Positions 56,794-64,000 of a DNA stretch of 64,000 nucleotides are shown here, piece by piece. The stretch is taken from positions 1 through 64,000 of the forward strand of contig NZ_JACBXA010000002.1 of the NCBI RefSeq assembly GCF_013870515.1. The letters are read 5' to 3'. Position numbers and translations under genes: made by a program. The notes under the pieces were generated by a model. The model was not told where the DNA came from, made no database searches, and saw only the letters and a program-made list of their open reading frames with translations. Numbering within the stretch: position 1 is the first letter of the stretch; every line of letters begins with the position of its first letter. Source of the stretch: Streptomyces albidus (ex Kaewkla and Franco 2022). Its GTDB lineage: Bacteria > Actinomycetota > Actinomycetes > Streptomycetales > Streptomycetaceae.

Positions 56794-57075
56794 TCCGCCC
56801 GTCCGACCTGGCCGCCGAGTCCGCTACTCAGATCCGGGGATCAGTGGTCTCGCCCCCGGCGCCAGGCCGGCCCGGTGCAACGGCGAGCATGGTCCCGGTC
56901 ACTTCCGCCCGGGTTCCCCCACCATGCGTTTGGACAGCGGCGGCGCCGGAATTCCCCCCGAGTTCCGCTGAGCGCCGCCGCCTGTCCGTGCCGCGTGAAT
57001 CAGCCTGATGCCCCCACGTGGTCGAGGGAAGTGCATCTTGATCGGCCTTCGACTTGCATTGATACGCTCTCGCCT

Positions 57076-58011
57076 ATGACGCGAGCTGAAGGGCCGTTAG
57101 GCCCTGCCGTCAGGCCTGGGGACCCCAGCGCACATCAGTTGCGGCTGTTTCTGCTCCTGGCAGACGAGCTGCACTTCGGGCGAGCTGCACAACGGGCGTT
57201 CATGACCCAGCCGGCCTTCTCCCAGCAGATCCGCTCGCTGGAGCGCCGCCTCGGCGTCGAGCTGGCTGATCGCACCACCCGTACCGCAGGTCTCACGGCG
57301 GAGGGGTGTGCTCTGCTCCCTGAGATTCGCCAGGTGGTGGAGGCAGCTGACCAACTTCGCCTCGCCGCCGGCCGGCAGGCGTGTGGTCCCTCTGGTCGAG
57401 TGGTGATCGGATCCTTCGAAGCCGTCACAGCGCTGCCTCCGATCCCGGCCATTCTTGAGGAACTGCTGGCCACATACCCAGGCATTGAGCTGGAAGTACT
57501 GCGCATGAGCTTCGTCGACTGCGCCGATATCCTTCTTGAGGGAGCTGTGGACGCGGCATTCGTCTTTCCGCCCTTGCCCGCGGGCATCCAGACGCAGGCG
57601 CTGACCGGCATGAAACGGGTCGCTTGCATGGCGGCCGGTGATCCTCTTGCGGCCGAGGGCCCGTTGACTCTCCAGCAGCTCTCCGACCACCCGCACATCG
57701 GTTGGTCACCCAAGATCCCCAAGTGCTGGCGTGACTTCTGGGCCACCGACCCCCGGCCGGACGGCAAGCCAGTCCAGTACACCGCGCACCAGGTCACCGA
57801 GTTCGAACCTGCGCTGACCGCCGTGGCCCTCGGCGACGGCATTCAACTCCCCCCGGAACCAGCCCGGTTGCTGTATCAACGCCCGGGCGTGGCCTACGTG
57901 GACGTCACCGACCTTCCGCCATGCAGCACCGCGCTCGCCTGGCGCAGGCAGGATCGCGACCGGCCCGTCGTCGCCGCCCTCCGGAAGGCAGCGAGTCATC
58001 AACTGACGTAG
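57076..58011 (+). CDS. LysR-family transcriptional regulator
   Basis: This 311-residue regulator has the LysR winged helix (HQLRLFLLLADELHFGRAAQRAFMTQPAFSQQIRSLERRLGVELADRTTRTAGLTAEG, about 20-77). A C-terminal substrate-binding domain (about 100-305) begins GRVVIGSFEAVTALPPI. The ATG is only about 10 bases after a GATACG that sits 17 bases from TTGATC, so the mRNA may be nearly leaderless. No divergent target gene adjoins: the gene upstream runs the same way. It may control the PIG-L/SDR pair or act at a distance. Confidence 0.9.
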   Translation: MTRAEGPLGPAVRPGDPSAHQLRLFLLLADELHFGRAAQRAFMTQPAFSQQIRSLERRLGVELADRTTRTAGLTAEGCALLPEIRQVVEAADQLRLAAGRQACGPSGRVVIGSFEAVTALPPIPAILEELLATYPGIELEVLRMSFVDCADILLEGAVDAAFVFPPLPAGIQTQALTGMKRVACMAAGDPLAAEGPLTLQQLSDHPHIGWSPKIPKCWRDFWATDPRPDGKPVQYTAHQVTEFEPALTAVALGDGIQLPPEPARLLYQRPGVAYVDVTDLPPCSTALAWRRQDRDRPVVAALRKAASHQLT

Positions 58012-58183
58012 ACGTCCCGGGCATCGTCTCGCTCTGGTACGCATATGACCGGACTGTCCGGAGCGGATTGCTCAGGCCGGGACAGGTATCCGCCGAAGGG
58101 CTTGGAACCCGAGTAACCGAGTAGTAGCTTTCACCGCTCAACCCCCCACGGGCCGCGTGCCCGCGCGAGCGAAGAGGTTCCGC

Positions 58184-59581
58184 GTGAAGCGTGTATTCAG
58201 CCGCGCCTGGTTCCCAGTGATCTGCGTATCCGGCTTGCTGGTCGCGGGCATGACGGTTCCGAGCGCGTTCGGCACCACCACCGAGGGCGCCGGCCCTGAC
58301 GGTCTCTCCGCGGACGACAGCCGAAGACCCGGCTCCGAACTGACCGTCGCACCGGGCGGGTCCGAGTCCGCGAGGATCAGCCGCCCGTCGGACCGCCGGG
58401 GACCCAACACGGTCAAGGACGCGGACGTCACCGTCTCGTCCTACGACGCCGAGGCCGGACAGGTCGTTCTCAGCCAGAAGGACCGGGACGGCGGCACCGG
58501 AAACATCGACGTCCGCAAGGGCGACGTGATCGCCAGCCCGCCCACGAAGGCAGCCCCCGCCGGCGCACTCGTCAAGGTCACAGACGTGCGGTCCGATGAC
58601 GGCGGGAAGGCTGAACTCCGCACCTCCCGGGCCAACCTCGCAGAGGTCCTCGGCGGCGCGAATGCCGACGGGACGGTCCCCGTCTCGCCCTCAGCCTGGA
58701 AGGTCGACCCGCAGGTCAAGGGACTCGACGTTGTACGAGGCGCCGCGAAGACCTCCCGCGGAGCATCGGCGTCCGGGAAGAAATCGGGCAGTGCCGGCGC
58801 CAAGAGCAGCAACCTGCACTTCGACTTCGACACCGAACTGCCCGGCTCCGCAGACGATGCGGGCCAACAGCCCGGGACCGCGCTGGGCGGGTTCCTGGAC
58901 ATCTCACCCGAGGTGGACTTCTCCTACGACGGTCACGGCTCGGGCGACCCCGCGGACGCGACCGCATCCATCGGCATCGGCGCGGACTACAAGGCCAGTT
59001 GGCGCGTGCAAGGCACCGTCGAACCCGACTTCGCGAAGCGCATCCCCCTGGCCGAGGCGACCGCACATCCCGTGATCATGGTCGGTCCGGTGCCGGTCGT
59101 CGTCACGGTGAAGTTGACCTTGGCACTGAAGGTGCAAGCGAACGGCCGGATACAGGTGGATGTCGACCAGGACGCGACCGGATCGGTGAAGGTGGGCACG
59201 CAGTACGCGAAGGAGTCGGGCTGGGAGCCCGACACCCACGCCGACGGCGAGACCCTTCCGGGCGGCAGGGCCGAAGTCTCCGGCCAGGGCGAACTGCGCA
59301 CAGCACTCGGCCCCGAGGCGAATGTCAGCCTCTACGACACCGTGGGAGTGGTCGCCTTCATCGGCCCGTACCTGCGGGCGACCGGCCAGTTGGCGGACTC
59401 GGGGCAGGACCCCCAGGGACGCGGCGCGTGGAAGCTGTACGGGGGCCTGACTCTCGAGAGCTCTCTGTACGCACAACTGCCGTTCGTGATCATCGGCAAC
59501 CGTCCCTCGAAGCACATCGACTTCCCACCCGTGAACCGCGAGTGGCTCATCACCGAAGGGCAAATTCCGGCAAGCTCCTGA
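58184..59581 (+). CDS. large secreted protein of unknown function
   Basis: This 465-residue protein has a signal peptide (VKRVFSRAWFPVICVSGLLVAGMTVPSAFG). A disordered acidic stretch follows to about residue 80. Next is a small domain of beta strands (VTVSSYDAEAGQVVLSQKD, GDVIASPPTKAAPAGALVKV, about 80-145). A long beta-rich C-terminal domain begins near 200 (SNLHFDFDTELPG, FLDISPEVDFSYDGHG, VTVKLTLALKVQANGRIQVDV). The latter alternates in the manner of a beta-barrel or adhesin. I recognise no catalytic motif. GTG 58184 has AAGAGG upstream; GTG 58157 is the alternative. It ends before a very strong terminator. Confidence 0.8.
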   Translation: MKRVFSRAWFPVICVSGLLVAGMTVPSAFGTTTEGAGPDGLSADDSRRPGSELTVAPGGSESARISRPSDRRGPNTVKDADVTVSSYDAEAGQVVLSQKDRDGGTGNIDVRKGDVIASPPTKAAPAGALVKVTDVRSDDGGKAELRTSRANLAEVLGGANADGTVPVSPSAWKVDPQVKGLDVVRGAAKTSRGASASGKKSGSAGAKSSNLHFDFDTELPGSADDAGQQPGTALGGFLDISPEVDFSYDGHGSGDPADATASIGIGADYKASWRVQGTVEPDFAKRIPLAEATAHPVIMVGPVPVVVTVKLTLALKVQANGRIQVDVDQDATGSVKVGTQYAKESGWEPDTHADGETLPGGRAEVSGQGELRTALGPEANVSLYDTVGVVAFIGPYLRATGQLADSGQDPQGRGAWKLYGGLTLESSLYAQLPFVIIGNRPSKHIDFPPVNREWLITEGQIPASS

Positions 59582-59889: not shown

Positions 59890-60075
59890 CCCGGATGGAA
59901 TGATGGCCGGTGACATGGCGACGGCGGTCCGAGGAAGCCGGTGTGAATCCGGCGCGGTCCCGCCACTGTGATCGGCGAGCGGATCCCCGACAGGCCACTG
60001 CCTCAAGCAGGTGGGAAGGCCGGGACGAGCCTTGACCCGAGAGCCAGGAGACTCACGCGGTCGCCTCCTCGACGG
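59890..60075 (+). ncRNA. cobalamin riboswitch
   Basis: The conserved order is present: GGTCCGAGGAAGCCGGTGTG, then AATCCGGCGCGGTCCCGCCACTGTGA (about 59926-59971), then the peripheral helices, and the B12-box-like GAGCCAGGAGACTCAC at 60041-60056. About 20 bases on, CCGGGG/CCCCGG (60079-60097) forms a stem beside the GAGAGAGGG ribosome site and is the probable expression platform. Adenosylcobalamin binding should lower translation of the ferredoxin gene downstream. Confidence 0.93.
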
Positions 60076-60114
60076 GTACCGGGGCGGATCTCCCCGGAGA
60101 GAGGGTGGTTCGGC

Positions 60115-60558
60115 GTGTCCGAGGCATCGGTCGATGAGGCATCCGGCGAAGCGGAGGCAGCGGAGACGGCCGGCCTTGCGCCGTGTCGGATCGTCGTGTG
60201 CCGGGACTGCTGCTGCGGCAGTCCCAAGGTGACCGGACTGGATCACGTGGCGCAGACGGCTCGACTGCGGGAGGAGGCACCTGTTCGCGTGTCCGCCTGC
60301 CTGGACGTATGTGACCAGGCCAATGTCATCGTCGTACAGCCTTCCGCCGAGGCCCGTGCCGCAGGCGCCCGACCCGTCTGGCTGGGGCTGGTCAACAACC
60401 CGGATGCGACCGAGGACGTCACCGCCTGGGTGCGTGCGGGCGGCCCCGGCGTCGCCCCGTGGCCGGAGATCCTTGACCTGCACGTCATCACGCCGCCGCG
60501 ACGAGGGCTCGCCGAGAGTCGCCGCGCCGCGTCGCCGATCCGTGGTCAGGGGCAATGA
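60115..60558 (+). CDS. thioredoxin-like [2Fe-2S] ferredoxin under cobalamin control
   Basis: This 147-residue protein has the thioredoxin-like ferredoxin fold: PCRIVVCRDCCCGSPKVTG (about 23-41) and RVSACLDVCDQANVIVVQP (about 59-77) hold the four cluster cysteines plus two extra. WLGLVNNPDATEDVTAWVRAGGPGVAPWPEIL ends the domain. Related proteins in Streptomyces sit with cobalamin biosynthesis or cobalt uptake genes, where they may supply electrons for cobalt or corrin reduction. Here it is alone after a B12 riboswitch. The GTG start at 60115 has GAGGG upstream; the frame runs into the riboswitch but that part is not coding. Confidence 0.9.
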   Translation: MSEASVDEASGEAEAAETAGLAPCRIVVCRDCCCGSPKVTGLDHVAQTARLREEAPVRVSACLDVCDQANVIVVQPSAEARAAGARPVWLGLVNNPDATEDVTAWVRAGGPGVAPWPEILDLHVITPPRRGLAESRRAASPIRGQGQ

Positions 60559-60968
60559 GACCACCGCCGTTACCGACTCCCGGGCCTGCGCAGATCGAGG
60601 CCCGGGCCGCCTTGAGCGGAAACCCTCAACGCCGTTTCTGGTCTGGGCCGTTGGGAGAGCCCCTCCGCAGGCCCAACAGGCTGCCCACCGCGCCGGCGCG
60701 AAGATCCGGGCGCTGGGGGATGAGCCCGACCTCGGCTCTGCTCCACCAATACGGGTTCGCCGTGCGGGTTGTTGTGCTTGCTCAGGGGCGGATGCGCTCT
60801 CGGCCGGCCCGAGCACTGCCCGCTCGGTGACGCCTTCTCGACGTCACCAGAGCAGCGAGACCGACCGAGAGTCGGCGCCAACCACTCGGCCGTTACCTGC
60901 CTTTGTGGACATGTGGGGGGAAGTCCTCCTCGCCGGAGAACCAGCAAGCCGCGTGCCTCTCCGCCGGC
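60559..60968. other. 410-bp convergent intergenic region, no gene seen
   Basis: It separates the ferredoxin and helD-like genes, which converge. Only shadow frames appear and I see no strong hairpin. Confidence 0.4.
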
Positions 60969-63203
60969 TCAGCGGCGCCCCGCTTCCTCCAGCCCTCCGA
61001 GCGCCCCGGGCAGATCGCCGGTGTGCAGTACTCCGAGGCGCTGGGTGGCGCGGGTCAGTGCCACGTACAGATCGCTCACCCCGTACTCCGCGGGCTCGAC
61101 GACCAGGACCGTGTCGAACTCCAGCCCCTTCGCCTGCCGTGCGTCCAGCAGAACGACGTCCCGGGTGAGGTCGGGCGCCTGCCCGTGACCCCCGTCCGGC
61201 AGCTCCGCGAGGAGCGGCGCGTGCAGCGTCGCAGGGGCGATGACCGCGACCCGTCCTCCGTCCGTGGCCGCTGCGGCCTCCCGCGCGACGGCGGAGGCGA
61301 GACCGTCCGCGGTGACTCGTAGCGCCCAGGGCCGCACCTCGGTCGACCGCACCGAACTGGGCGGCTCGAAAGACCGGGTGTGCGCCCGCAGGAACCCGGC
61401 CGCGACGTCCATGATCTCGGCGGGCGTACGGTAGTTGACCCCCAGTCGTACGTGCTCCCAGCGGTCGCCCACGTACGGTTCCAAGATGCGTTTCCAGGAG
61501 CCGAGTCCGGCCGTTTCCGCGGTCTGCGCCGGGTCCCCGACGAGCGTCATGGAGCGCGTCGGGACGCGCCGCATCAGCAACCGCCAGGCCATAGCCGAGA
61601 GTTCCTGCGCCTCGTCGACGACGAGGTGCCCGAATGCCCAGGTGCGGTCGGCCGCCGCACGCTCGGCCGCGCTTCGGTGGTCGGCCTCCTCGTGCCGCTC
61701 GGCCATCCGCTCGGCGTCGATGATGTCGTGCGCGGCAAGGACCTCGGACTCCTCGTCCTCGTACTCGTAGGTCTCCGAGCCGGCGGAAAGCTCCAACACG
61801 CCCTGGGCGTAGGCGATCCGTTCCTCGCGTTCGGCCGCGGCCGCGGCGCGGGCCGCACTGTCGTCCTCGCCCAGCAGTTCGGCGGCCTCGTCGAGGAGGG
61901 GTACGTCGGCCTGGGTCCACGCTCCGCCCTGCCGCCGGATCAGCTCTGCCGACTCCTCGTCGAGGTGGACCGGCTCCGCGAGGAAGTCCGCGACGAACTC
62001 CTGCGGGGTGAGCTGCGGCCACAACTCGTCGACGGCTGCGTGGACTTCAGGGTTCGTCGCGATCTCCTTGCCCATCTGGGCGATGTCGTCGGGCCCCAGC
62101 AGATTCGGCCCGCCGAACGGGTCGGCGCCGATCCGTTCAGCCAGTTGCTCGGTGAGCGCGTCGATGACGTGGAACGTGAAGGCGGGCCTGGCCAGGTTGT
62201 GGGGCAGCCCGCTCTCGCGCGCACGATGGCGCGCGTCCTCCGCCATGGCCCGCTCCAGGAAGAGCGTCCCGTAGTCGTCGTGGTCGATCTCCGTCGCCCA
62301 CTCGGGCACGGTCTGCCGGTCGCGCAGCGCCTTCGCCAGCACATCTGCCATCGCGGTACGCCCCTTCACCTCGGCGGCGGCGGGACTGTCGGTGCCGGTG
62401 GCGCGCACGCCTGGGAAGAGCTCGCCGAGGGTTGCCAGCAGCACCCCGGTCTCGCCCAGGGACGGCAGGACGTCGCCGATGTAGCTCAGGAAGGCCGGGT
62501 TGGGGCCGACGATCAGCACCGCCCGACGGGCCAGCAACTCCCGGTGCTCGTAGAGCAGATACGCCGCCCGGTGCAGCGCGACGACGGTCTTGCCGGTGCC
62601 GGGGCCGCCCTCGACCACCATGACGCCCTGGTGGGGCGCCCTGATGATGTGGTCCTGTTCAGCCTGGATGGTCCGGACGATGTCGTGCATCCGCCCCGTG
62701 CGGGCCGCGTCCAGTGAGGCCAGCAGGACCTCGTCGGCGCCCTCGTGGCCGGTGCGGGTCGCGTCGTCCAGGTCCATCAGTTCGTCGTGGAGTGCGGTGA
62801 CCGTGCGTCCCTCGGTGGTGATGTGCCGCCTCCGCCGCAGGCCCATCGGAGAATGGCCGGTGGCCAGATAGAAGGGACGTGCGACGTCCGCGCGCCAGTC
62901 GATCACCAGGGGTGTACGAGACGAGTCGTCCTGGCGAATTCCGATGCGCCCGATGTGGTGGGTAGCGCCGTCCCGGAAGTCGAGGCGTCCGAAGCAGAGC
63001 CCGTTCTCTCCCGCGTGGATAGCGCTGAGCAGCCCGGACTGCTCAGCCACCATCACATCCCGCTCGAGTTTGGCCTGGAAGCCGGTCCCGACCTGCACGA
63101 GCGCGTCGCGGACCGAGTTCTCTGCCTGCTCCCTGAGTTGATCGAGCCGGGCGTAGAGGCCGGTGACGAATTGCTGTTCCTGCTGCATTTCCTCGGTTGA
63201 CAA
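60969..63203 (-). CDS. HelD/HelR-family RNA-polymerase-recycling ATPase
   Basis: This 744-residue UvrD-like ATPase binds RNA polymerase and frees it from stalled complexes; HelR members also displace rifamycins. An N-terminal coiled coil (EEMQQEQQFVTGLYARLDQLREQAEN) is followed by VIDWRADVARPFYLATGHSPMGLRRRRHI, typical of HelD. Walker A GGPGTGKT is at 199-206. An acidic insertion (YEYEDEESEVLAAHDIIDAERMAERHEEADHRSAAER) lies before HLVVDEAQELSAMAWRLLMRR. VGDPAQTAETAGLGSW, VNYRTPAEIMDVA and LLDARQAKGLEFDTVLVVEP with YVALTRATQRLGVLHTGDLPG complete it. TTG 63203 with AGGAG seven bases upstream is preferred to ATG 63278. No RAE motif is seen upstream, so whether it is HelD or HelR is open. Confidence 0.92.
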   Translation of the reverse strand: MSTEEMQQEQQFVTGLYARLDQLREQAENSVRDALVQVGTGFQAKLERDVMVAEQSGLLSAIHAGENGLCFGRLDFRDGATHHIGRIGIRQDDSSRTPLVIDWRADVARPFYLATGHSPMGLRRRRHITTEGRTVTALHDELMDLDDATRTGHEGADEVLLASLDAARTGRMHDIVRTIQAEQDHIIRAPHQGVMVVEGGPGTGKTVVALHRAAYLLYEHRELLARRAVLIVGPNPAFLSYIGDVLPSLGETGVLLATLGELFPGVRATGTDSPAAAEVKGRTAMADVLAKALRDRQTVPEWATEIDHDDYGTLFLERAMAEDARHRARESGLPHNLARPAFTFHVIDALTEQLAERIGADPFGGPNLLGPDDIAQMGKEIATNPEVHAAVDELWPQLTPQEFVADFLAEPVHLDEESAELIRRQGGAWTQADVPLLDEAAELLGEDDSAARAAAAAEREERIAYAQGVLELSAGSETYEYEDEESEVLAAHDIIDAERMAERHEEADHRSAAERAAADRTWAFGHLVVDEAQELSAMAWRLLMRRVPTRSMTLVGDPAQTAETAGLGSWKRILEPYVGDRWEHVRLGVNYRTPAEIMDVAAGFLRAHTRSFEPPSSVRSTEVRPWALRVTADGLASAVAREAAAATDGGRVAVIAPATLHAPLLAELPDGGHGQAPDLTRDVVLLDARQAKGLEFDTVLVVEPAEYGVSDLYVALTRATQRLGVLHTGDLPGALGGLEEAGRR

Positions 63204-63244
63204 TTCCGCTCCTGACGCGATATGCTTCTCGCAGAAGAATTCCT

Positions 63245-63272
63245 CTTCATGTCTTTTCGTGAAGACATGAAG
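63245..63272 (-). promoter_or_regulatory. 11-bp-arm palindrome over the predicted helD start site
   Basis: CTTCATGTCTT (63245-63255) and AAGACATGAAG (63262-63272) are perfect inverted arms with a 6-base centre. The predicted transcription start (about 63270) falls inside, so it may be an operator or a 5'-terminal hairpin of the mRNA. Confidence 0.6.
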
Positions 63273-63276
63273 GATC

Positions 63277-63307
63277 AATATACGCAGAATCGAGCCCCGG
63301 ATGTCAA
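63277..63307 (-). promoter_or_regulatory. predicted sigma-70-type promoter of the helD-like gene
   Basis: On the minus strand, TTGACA (complement of 63302-63307) and TATATT (complement of 63277-63282) are spaced 19 bases, or 18 with GTATAT as -10. The region is strongly A/T-rich compared with the rest of the window. Confidence 0.65.
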
Positions 63308-63329
63308 TTCATCCAGGGCTCTTCTTTTT
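63292..63329 (+). terminator. rho-independent terminator overlapping the helD -35 box
   Basis: A 12-bp stem (63292-63303 with 63310-63321, one G-T type mismatch) is followed by TTCTTTTT on the plus strand (63322-63329). The same hairpin could end the leftward polysaccharide lyase transcript. The TTGACA of the helD promoter lies in its loop and arm. Confidence 0.8.
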
Positions 63330-63434
63330 GAGGAATCACCGGTTCCTGCCGGCCTGTGCGGCGATGTGCGAGGAGCCCGTCCACCAGTGCCCCTACGGGG
63401 CGGCGGTGAGTGCGGCAGCCGGTGCGGGTGGCTC

Positions 63435-64000
63435 CTACCGCAGCCGTGCCACGAAGCTTCGTCCGTAGGCGTGCCGGGTGGTGACGTCGATTCGGGTGGC
63501 GCCGGGGGGCCGGGTGACGTGGACACCGTCGTCTGCGGAGATCAGACGCAGAGAGCGGCCGCGCAGGGTGACGGTGACCTTGTCGCGTTCGGTGGTCGGA
63601 TCTGCGACGGCGACGGTGGTGATGCCGTCGGGGCCGCGCCGGATGAGTACTGACGCGGGGCCGTCCACAGCGAGTGGTCCGGCGAAGTGGGTGCCCGGCG
63701 TGAAGGTGTTGGCGGCGAGCAGGCCCAGCTCGGGGTGGGCGATCGCCTGGAGGTCCGGGGTGTTCGCGAGGACCTTCAGCGGGCCGTGCGCGTAGCGGCG
63801 CAGCTGCCGTTCGGTGGCGCCCGGCACCAGGGCGTAGGCCAGCGTGGCGGCGGGCGTGCCGGGCGGCTGCTCGAAGGCGATGCTGAAGACCTGCTTGGTG
63901 ATTCGGGTGTCGGGGTTGGAGGCGTTGACGTCCTGGCGGCTGTGGGTGACGGTCTCGAGCGTGACGGTGGGGCGAGGGCCGTGAGGTGAGTCCGGGGAGT
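63435..64000 (-). CDS. family-8 polysaccharide lyase (hyaluronate/xanthan/chondroitin lyase type), 3' part
   Basis: The last 188 codons of a gene that enters from beyond the window. Readable pieces are THSRQDVNASNPDTRITKQV, FSIAFEQPPGTPAATLAYAL, LANTPDLQAIAHPELGLLAA, NTFTPGTHFAGPLAVDGPAS and TRHAYGRSFVARLR. These match the C-terminal beta-sandwich domains of PL8 lyases, which follow the catalytic alpha/alpha toroid not seen here. Such enzymes are secreted and cleave uronic-acid polymers by beta-elimination. The stop is at 63435; a hairpin terminator follows at 63292-63321. An internal Met at 63827 is not the start, because family sequence continues upstream of it. Confidence 0.82.
   Translation of the reverse strand, partial: SPDSPHGPRPTVTLETVTHSRQDVNASNPDTRITKQVFSIAFEQPPGTPAATLAYALVPGATERQLRRYAHGPLKVLANTPDLQAIAHPELGLLAANTFTPGTHFAGPLAVDGPASVLIRRGPDGITTVAVADPTTERDKVTVTLRGRSLRLISADDGVHVTRPPGATRIDVTTRHAYGRSFVARLR

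Follow-up and report, generated by a model that had tools for sequence, protein, structure and literature searches.

The helD Locus and Its Leader

The stretch of Streptomyces albidus DNA analysed here (64,000 nt, hereafter called the window) carries a helD gene on its minus strand (Table 1). The start of the gene was picked by its ribosome-binding site and by conservation. The product aligns with M. smegmatis HelD (PDB 6yxu) over residues 4-741 with an E value of 1.8e-173, indicating full-length homology. It scores 669 bits against NCBIfam HelD_MYCSM (cut-off 1051) and 729.5 of 1100 and 425.5 of 750 bits against the HelR models NF041258 and NF041254, respectively. By homology, the product is a mycobacterial-type Class II HelD that lies below all curated NCBIfam HelD/HelR cut-offs. 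The genome carries three more HelD-like genes, and in these paralogs (L176-L178), each tested at three places, no antisense promoter lies 90 nt or less from any of them. Upstream of one of them (L177, contig C27) a different inverted repeat, TCTCGCA...TGCGAGA, is visible by eye. The upstream neighbor of helD is a family 8 polysaccharide lyase gene on the same strand. Elsewhere in the window, a 474-aa open frame on the plus strand (58157-59581), which has no Pfam match at E 0.001, adjoins a LysR-type regulator gene at 56875-58011.

Table 1. Coordinates of helD and of the elements of its leader in the window
Feature	Position	Strand	Details and basis
helD	60969..63203	-	Class II HelD-type RNA polymerase recycling factor, 744 aa; TTG start 63203-63201
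Antisense promoter	63197..63226	+	TTGACA 63197-63202, 18-nt spacer, TATGCT 63221-63226; promoter scan and conservation
helD ribosome-binding site	63209..63213	-	AGGAG, in the antisense-promoter spacer; sequence
Predicted antisense RNA	63233..63329	+	About 97 nt; predicted start to end of T-tract
Palindrome	63245..63272	.	11-bp arms 63245-63255/63262-63272, 6-nt loop; perfect inverted repeat
helD promoter	63277..63307	-	TTGACA 63307-63302, 19-nt spacer, TATATT 63282-63277; sequence
Second inverted repeat	63292-63303/63310-63321		12-bp arms, 11/12 paired, 6-nt loop
Intrinsic-terminator-like hairpin and T-tract	63292..63329	+	T-tract 63322-63329; reads antisense to helD

Positions 63245-63329 of the leader have a GC content of 0.435 compared to a mean of 0.687, and only 0.036% of the 85-nt stretches of the window have a GC content as low. 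This agrees with a first-pass annotation of this DNA, which had described the A/T content as far from the local norm. The same annotation had read a TTGACA in the loop and arm of a terminator-like stem, a TATATT 19 nt further on, and a perfect repeat spanning the expected +1. These elements are present as described, with four bases of the helD -35 box in the loop of the hairpin and two in its arm. The helD start, when predicted at seven bases after the -10 box as was done for both promoters, falls at about 63270, inside the right arm of the palindrome. The 12-bp stem with its T-tail is also present, except for one unpaired position. However, its T-tail lies on the plus strand and there is none on the helD strand, so as a terminator the hairpin would act on transcripts that run against helD.

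The key element of the leader, a plus-strand promoter that faces the helD promoter, is absent from the first-pass annotation. Its -35 box overlaps codons 1 and 2 of helD, including the TTG start codon, and its start is predicted at about 63233. The two predicted starts are 38 bp apart (both counted), and the palindrome separating the -10 boxes would fold into a hairpin in the sense as well as the antisense RNA. The antisense promoter is the sole sigma-70-like site reported by a promoter scan of positions 60000-64000, where shuffled sequences gave a mean of 0.1. The scan did not report the sense helD promoter, whose spacer of 19 nt lies outside the scan, and a terminator scan did not report the hairpin at 63292-63321, which has a mismatch. 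In the window the -10 boxes of the antisense and sense promoters match the consensus at four and five of six positions, respectively; relative promoter strengths are unreadable from the letters.

A thioredoxin-like frame precedes the S. violaceoruber ortholog of helD (L097) by eye, and SCO5438 of S. coelicolor is reported to be a thioredoxin (PMC9952706). The S. coelicolor ortholog should therefore be SCO5439, which fits by neighborhood only. The small RNA scr2952 of S. coelicolor (PMC8388888) was considered as the antisense RNA and was dropped, since the ortholog should be SCO5439 and not SCO2952. Rfam searches of seven loci gave weak sub-threshold matches and none at gathering score. The literature passages retrieved on SCO5439 make no mention of an antisense promoter, and 5439 is absent from the main texts of three S. 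coelicolor transcriptome papers. Among the titles and abstract openings listed for the question, only PMC12802891 concerns helD.

Conservation of the Promoter Pair in Streptomyces

In a scan of named genomes, 384 relatives were confirmed. The best 80 of these (L043-L122), with none dropped, and the window itself make up the set of 81 leaders used below. The leader sequences are related, and counts across leaders or genomes are not independent. All 81 leaders carry an in-frame TTGTCAA, which reads TTGACA on the antisense strand, at the helD start. An antisense TANNNT, the -10 motif reported at 80.4% of mapped S. coelicolor starts (PMC4895711), follows at a spacer of 18 nt in 73 leaders and of 17 nt in 8. 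Elsewhere between 6 and 45 nt, each spacer has the motif in no leader or in one, except for 11 leaders at 20 nt and 8 at 31 nt. Every one of the 81 leaders has TCA as codon 2 of helD, yet TCA accounts for only 26 of 1974 serine codons further along these genes, so it is the bases and not the protein that are constrained. The GG of the ribosome-binding site (positions -9 and -8) is likewise found in every leader of this set (the window and the best 80 of 384). The sense promoter has TATATT as its -10 box in 77 of the 81 leaders and one of three near variants, picked after looking at the data, in the other 4. The best match to the sense -35 box lies at a spacer of 19 nt in 54 leaders, 18 nt in 26 and 17 nt in 1.

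A strict pattern for the promoter pair was found in 160 of 199 genomes of the genus and was absent in 39, while the same pattern read backward was found in none. Each of the 160 genomes has one match, except G185 which has two. A HelD match at 1e-10 is lacking in 12 of the 199 genomes. All 49 strict-pattern loci examined, the window among them, are immediately followed by a helD frame. In a class-wide sample of 296 genomes, the pattern occurs in 23, all among the 28 genomes of the genus, and in none of the 268 outside it (backward control, 2 of 296).

The arrangement of the helD leader as a pair of convergent housekeeping-type promoters looks secure at the level of sequence, and it supports in outline the earlier suggestion that helD is under dedicated control. 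Single consensus matches are weak evidence by themselves, and the window holds perfect 11-bp hairpins at 9 separate sites (22 overlapping matches), which would suit a chance juxtaposition in which the hairpin is the terminator of a neighboring gene and the plus-strand promoter is fortuitous. This explanation is very improbable given that the antisense -35 and -10 boxes are conserved at a fixed spacing. Moreover, the hairpin was rejected as a terminator of the lyase gene because its T-tract lies on the wrong strand, opposite to that gene. The stacking of elements had been called unusual: a single perfect 11-bp hairpin is not rare in the window, but the conserved combination exceeds chance. Transcriptional interference from the lyase gene had also been suggested. 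Interference is retained in outline, with the antisense promoter in the helD leader as its putative source; the lyase gene, which runs in the same direction as helD, would not be the source.

The Antisense Promoter beyond Streptomyces

Beyond the genus, the sample consisted of the stretches upstream of HelD matches picked from score lists. An antisense promoter was counted where at least five of six bases of TTGACA were followed after 17-18 nt by TANNNT, within -75 to +25 of the start of the match. The counts beyond Streptomyces cover the antisense promoter alone. Of the 37 matches taken from other genera of the family, 36 have the antisense promoter at the helD start, 33 of them with an exact TTGACA. 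So do both of two divergent Streptomyces, one of which the pattern search had already revealed. Among matches from the order's other families, it was found in 4 of 12 best matches and in none of 4 second matches (paralogs). In other families of the class it was found in 13 of 20 matches (8 with exact TTGACA). The sense strand gave none in any group, and shuffled sequences gave 0.3-0.6%.

A start-codon TTGACA is kept in all 12 order-level best matches. In the 8 misses it is followed after 18 nt by CAGAAT (6), CAGACT (1) or TAGAAC (1). The start reads ATGTCAA in 3 of these 12 best matches, and GTGTCAA starts occur in other genera of the family. These starts also keep TTGACA, so it is TGTCAA, and not the TTG codon, that is invariant. 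This also disproves the idea that a TTG start is forced by the antisense -35 box. On this sequence evidence, a main helD of streptomycetes and the helD genes of several other actinobacterial families would appear to have a start-codon antisense promoter of the B. subtilis kind. Seven loci from genera of the same order (L250-L255 and L258) have a start-codon TTGACA with a CAGAAT or CAGACT -10 box, and a UUCG-type antisense terminator can be seen upstream by eye.

The Predicted Antisense Terminator and the +1 Hairpin

A terminator-like hairpin with a T-tract is found on the antisense strand within 130 nt past the antisense start in 65 of the 81 leaders (best 80 of 384 and the window). The same scan gave 5.6% in shuffled sequences and 29 of 81 leaders on the sense strand. 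The remaining 16 leaders have no antisense terminator as defined by the scan. In 8 of the 81 leaders (L086, L088, L092, L099, L100, L108, L112 and L122), a T-tailed hairpin lies less than 60 nt from the antisense start. The antisense RNA of these leaders would be much shorter and would end at the helD start site.

In the set of 81 leaders (best 80 of 384 and the window), folding between the -10 boxes is more stable on average than that of shuffled sequences, with a mean z of -2.0 on the sense strand (below -2 in 40 leaders) and -2.2 on the antisense strand (below -2 in 46 leaders). Perfect arms of at least 8 bp occur in 21 leaders compared to 1.3% of shuffled sequences. Taken singly, 31 leaders reach a hairpin p of 0.05 or less, and the arms are 5 bp or shorter in 30. 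Among the 32 leaders with arms of at least 7 bp there are 24 distinct arms. The first-pass annotation had made its proposal depend on conservation of the palindrome in orthologous promoters. On this point the outcome is split: the +1 hairpin is conserved as pairing in part of the leaders and not as letters, and the promoter layout around it is strongly conserved.

A repressor binding to the +1 palindrome had been proposed, and perfect 11-bp arms at the predicted start would suit such a protein. However, the arms vary between species to an extent that leaves no common site, and folding is more stable on average than in shuffled sequences; a repressor is highly unlikely. A hairpin at the 5' end of the helD mRNA, which had been suggested as well, is possible. 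The sense and antisense RNAs would overlap by about 38 nt, hairpin included, and could act at the RNA level by the antisense RNA and the 5' hairpins pairing with, shielding or stabilizing the helD leader with no collision of polymerases. The stability of the folds and the maintenance of pairing while arm letters vary are consistent with such control. It is nevertheless improbable as the main explanation, since short arms and singly insignificant hairpins are common among these leaders and since conservation is much stronger for the promoter boxes and the distance between them than for the hairpin.

Relation to Known Systems and Proposed Mechanism

In B. subtilis, helD is reported to have a weaker sense promoter with slow escape and a stronger antisense promoter (PMC12802891). 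When rifampicin is present below inhibitory levels, polymerase becomes arrested at the antisense promoter and helD is released, and removal of 17 bp abolished induction. The B. subtilis helD and pps genes both carry this dual convergent-promoter rifampicin alarm (PMC12802891). The S. albidus locus resembles B. subtilis helD in gene family and in the convergent promoters of the leader, with starts 38 bp apart here (predicted) and 39 bp apart in B. subtilis. The antisense RNA of B. subtilis is about 90-94 nt long and ends at an intrinsic terminator; the one predicted here would be about 97 nt long and would end at a terminator-like hairpin. Both loci have unusually long spacers (sense 19 and antisense 18 nt here; antisense 19 nt in B. 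subtilis) (PMC12802891). Unlike B. subtilis helD, the gene encodes a Class II HelD and belongs to another phylum, the antisense -35 box overlaps the start codon, the sense -35 box falls partly in the loop and partly in an arm of the predicted antisense terminator, and a hairpin is present at +1. The distance from the helD start site to the translation start also differs (about 67 nt here, predicted; 98 nt in B. subtilis, PMC12802891).

Passages of the same paper, published in 2026, state that actinobacterial helD genes carry the RAE and contrast this with convergent promoters. Its genome search retained only pairs 45-100 bp apart that did not overlap other annotated regions, a filter by which promoters that overlap a start codon may have been lost. 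The published description of the RAE is of a 19-bp palindrome that overlaps the -35 box of the second of two promoters in the same direction (PMC10719064). The S. albidus gene and the RAE-controlled helD/helR genes are alike Class II helD genes of Actinobacteria, and each has promoter elements overlapped by a palindrome. Compared with the RAE as described, the palindromes here are longer (28 and 30 bp), the arms of the +1 palindrome vary in sequence, and the two promoters face each other. Phage 186 and Shigella icsA (cited in PMC12802891) and scbA-scbR of S. coelicolor (PMC3134472) are also reported to have transcription running head-on across a promoter; they involve other genes and signals and no polymerase-rescue gene. 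The design of dual-promoter control is already known and the actinobacterial variant is new.

Because geometry and gene family match those of B. subtilis helD, the same interference mechanism is proposed here. Antisense transcription would cross the helD promoter and hold helD expression low. Arrest of RNA polymerase at the antisense promoter by rifamycins, by other polymerase inhibitors or by general stalling would end this interference. The sense polymerase would then escape and HelD would be made, which would clear stalled polymerases. We infer promoter activity, interference and drug response at helD by analogy with B. subtilis. That the convergent pair is a dual-promoter alarm of the B. 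subtilis type in an actinobacterial Class II helD is favored with a probability of roughly 0.55. The drug-sensing reading is kept near even odds by the unreadable promoter strengths and by two reports in PMC8655204. In S. venezuelae only the RAE-bearing helD of five was induced by rifampicin, and the four helD genes of S. coelicolor were all expressed without drug.

The promoters may also be real and interfering but have an input other than a polymerase-binding drug, in which case the pair would damp helD or would read polymerase availability, initiating-nucleotide levels or growth phase. The evidence from the layout is identical for this alternative, which is further favored by the induction of only another paralog in S. 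venezuelae (PMC8655204) and by the reported response of the B. subtilis antisense promoter to GTP (PMC12802891). It is rather unlikely given that the gene functions in polymerase rescue and that the geometry is near-identical to that of the proven drug alarm of B. subtilis. If the drug alarm works alike in both organisms, one and the same polymerase-rescue gene would be preceded in two phyla by almost the same 39-bp polymerase-arrest sensor, and how helD paralogs lacking the RAE are controlled would be directly testable in S. coelicolor.

Distance between the Two Starts

The predicted starts are 38-42 bp apart in 62 of the 81 leaders (best 80 of 384 and the window) and 48-79 bp apart in 19, with none closer than 38 bp. 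The distance was also counted in a larger set of 178 leaders, those of 180 matches with a detectable helD frame after them, with one value per leader. In 5 merged leaders that had more than one distance the smallest was taken, and a length limit applied to the leaders that came from the pattern search. The distance is 36-43 bp in 148 of these 178 leaders and 48-54 bp in 24, and the rest have distances of 59, 63 (two), 66, 75 and 79 bp. No leader has a distance of 44-47, 49 or 55-58 bp or one below 36 bp, though distances of at least 18 bp were allowed.

The clustering at about 40 and about 51 bp with gaps suggests a tentative, and on balance doubtful, reading in which the leader is a widespread actinobacterial sensor of stalled polymerase that requires two opposed polymerases to keep a fixed rotational register. 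A polymerase arrested at the start-codon promoter would then free the other one. If true, such a register sensor would be a RAE-independent switch of helD for any polymerase inhibitor. The clusters near 40 and 51 bp lie about one helical turn apart, uncorrected for relatedness. The 193 distinct matches gave the same picture of distances.
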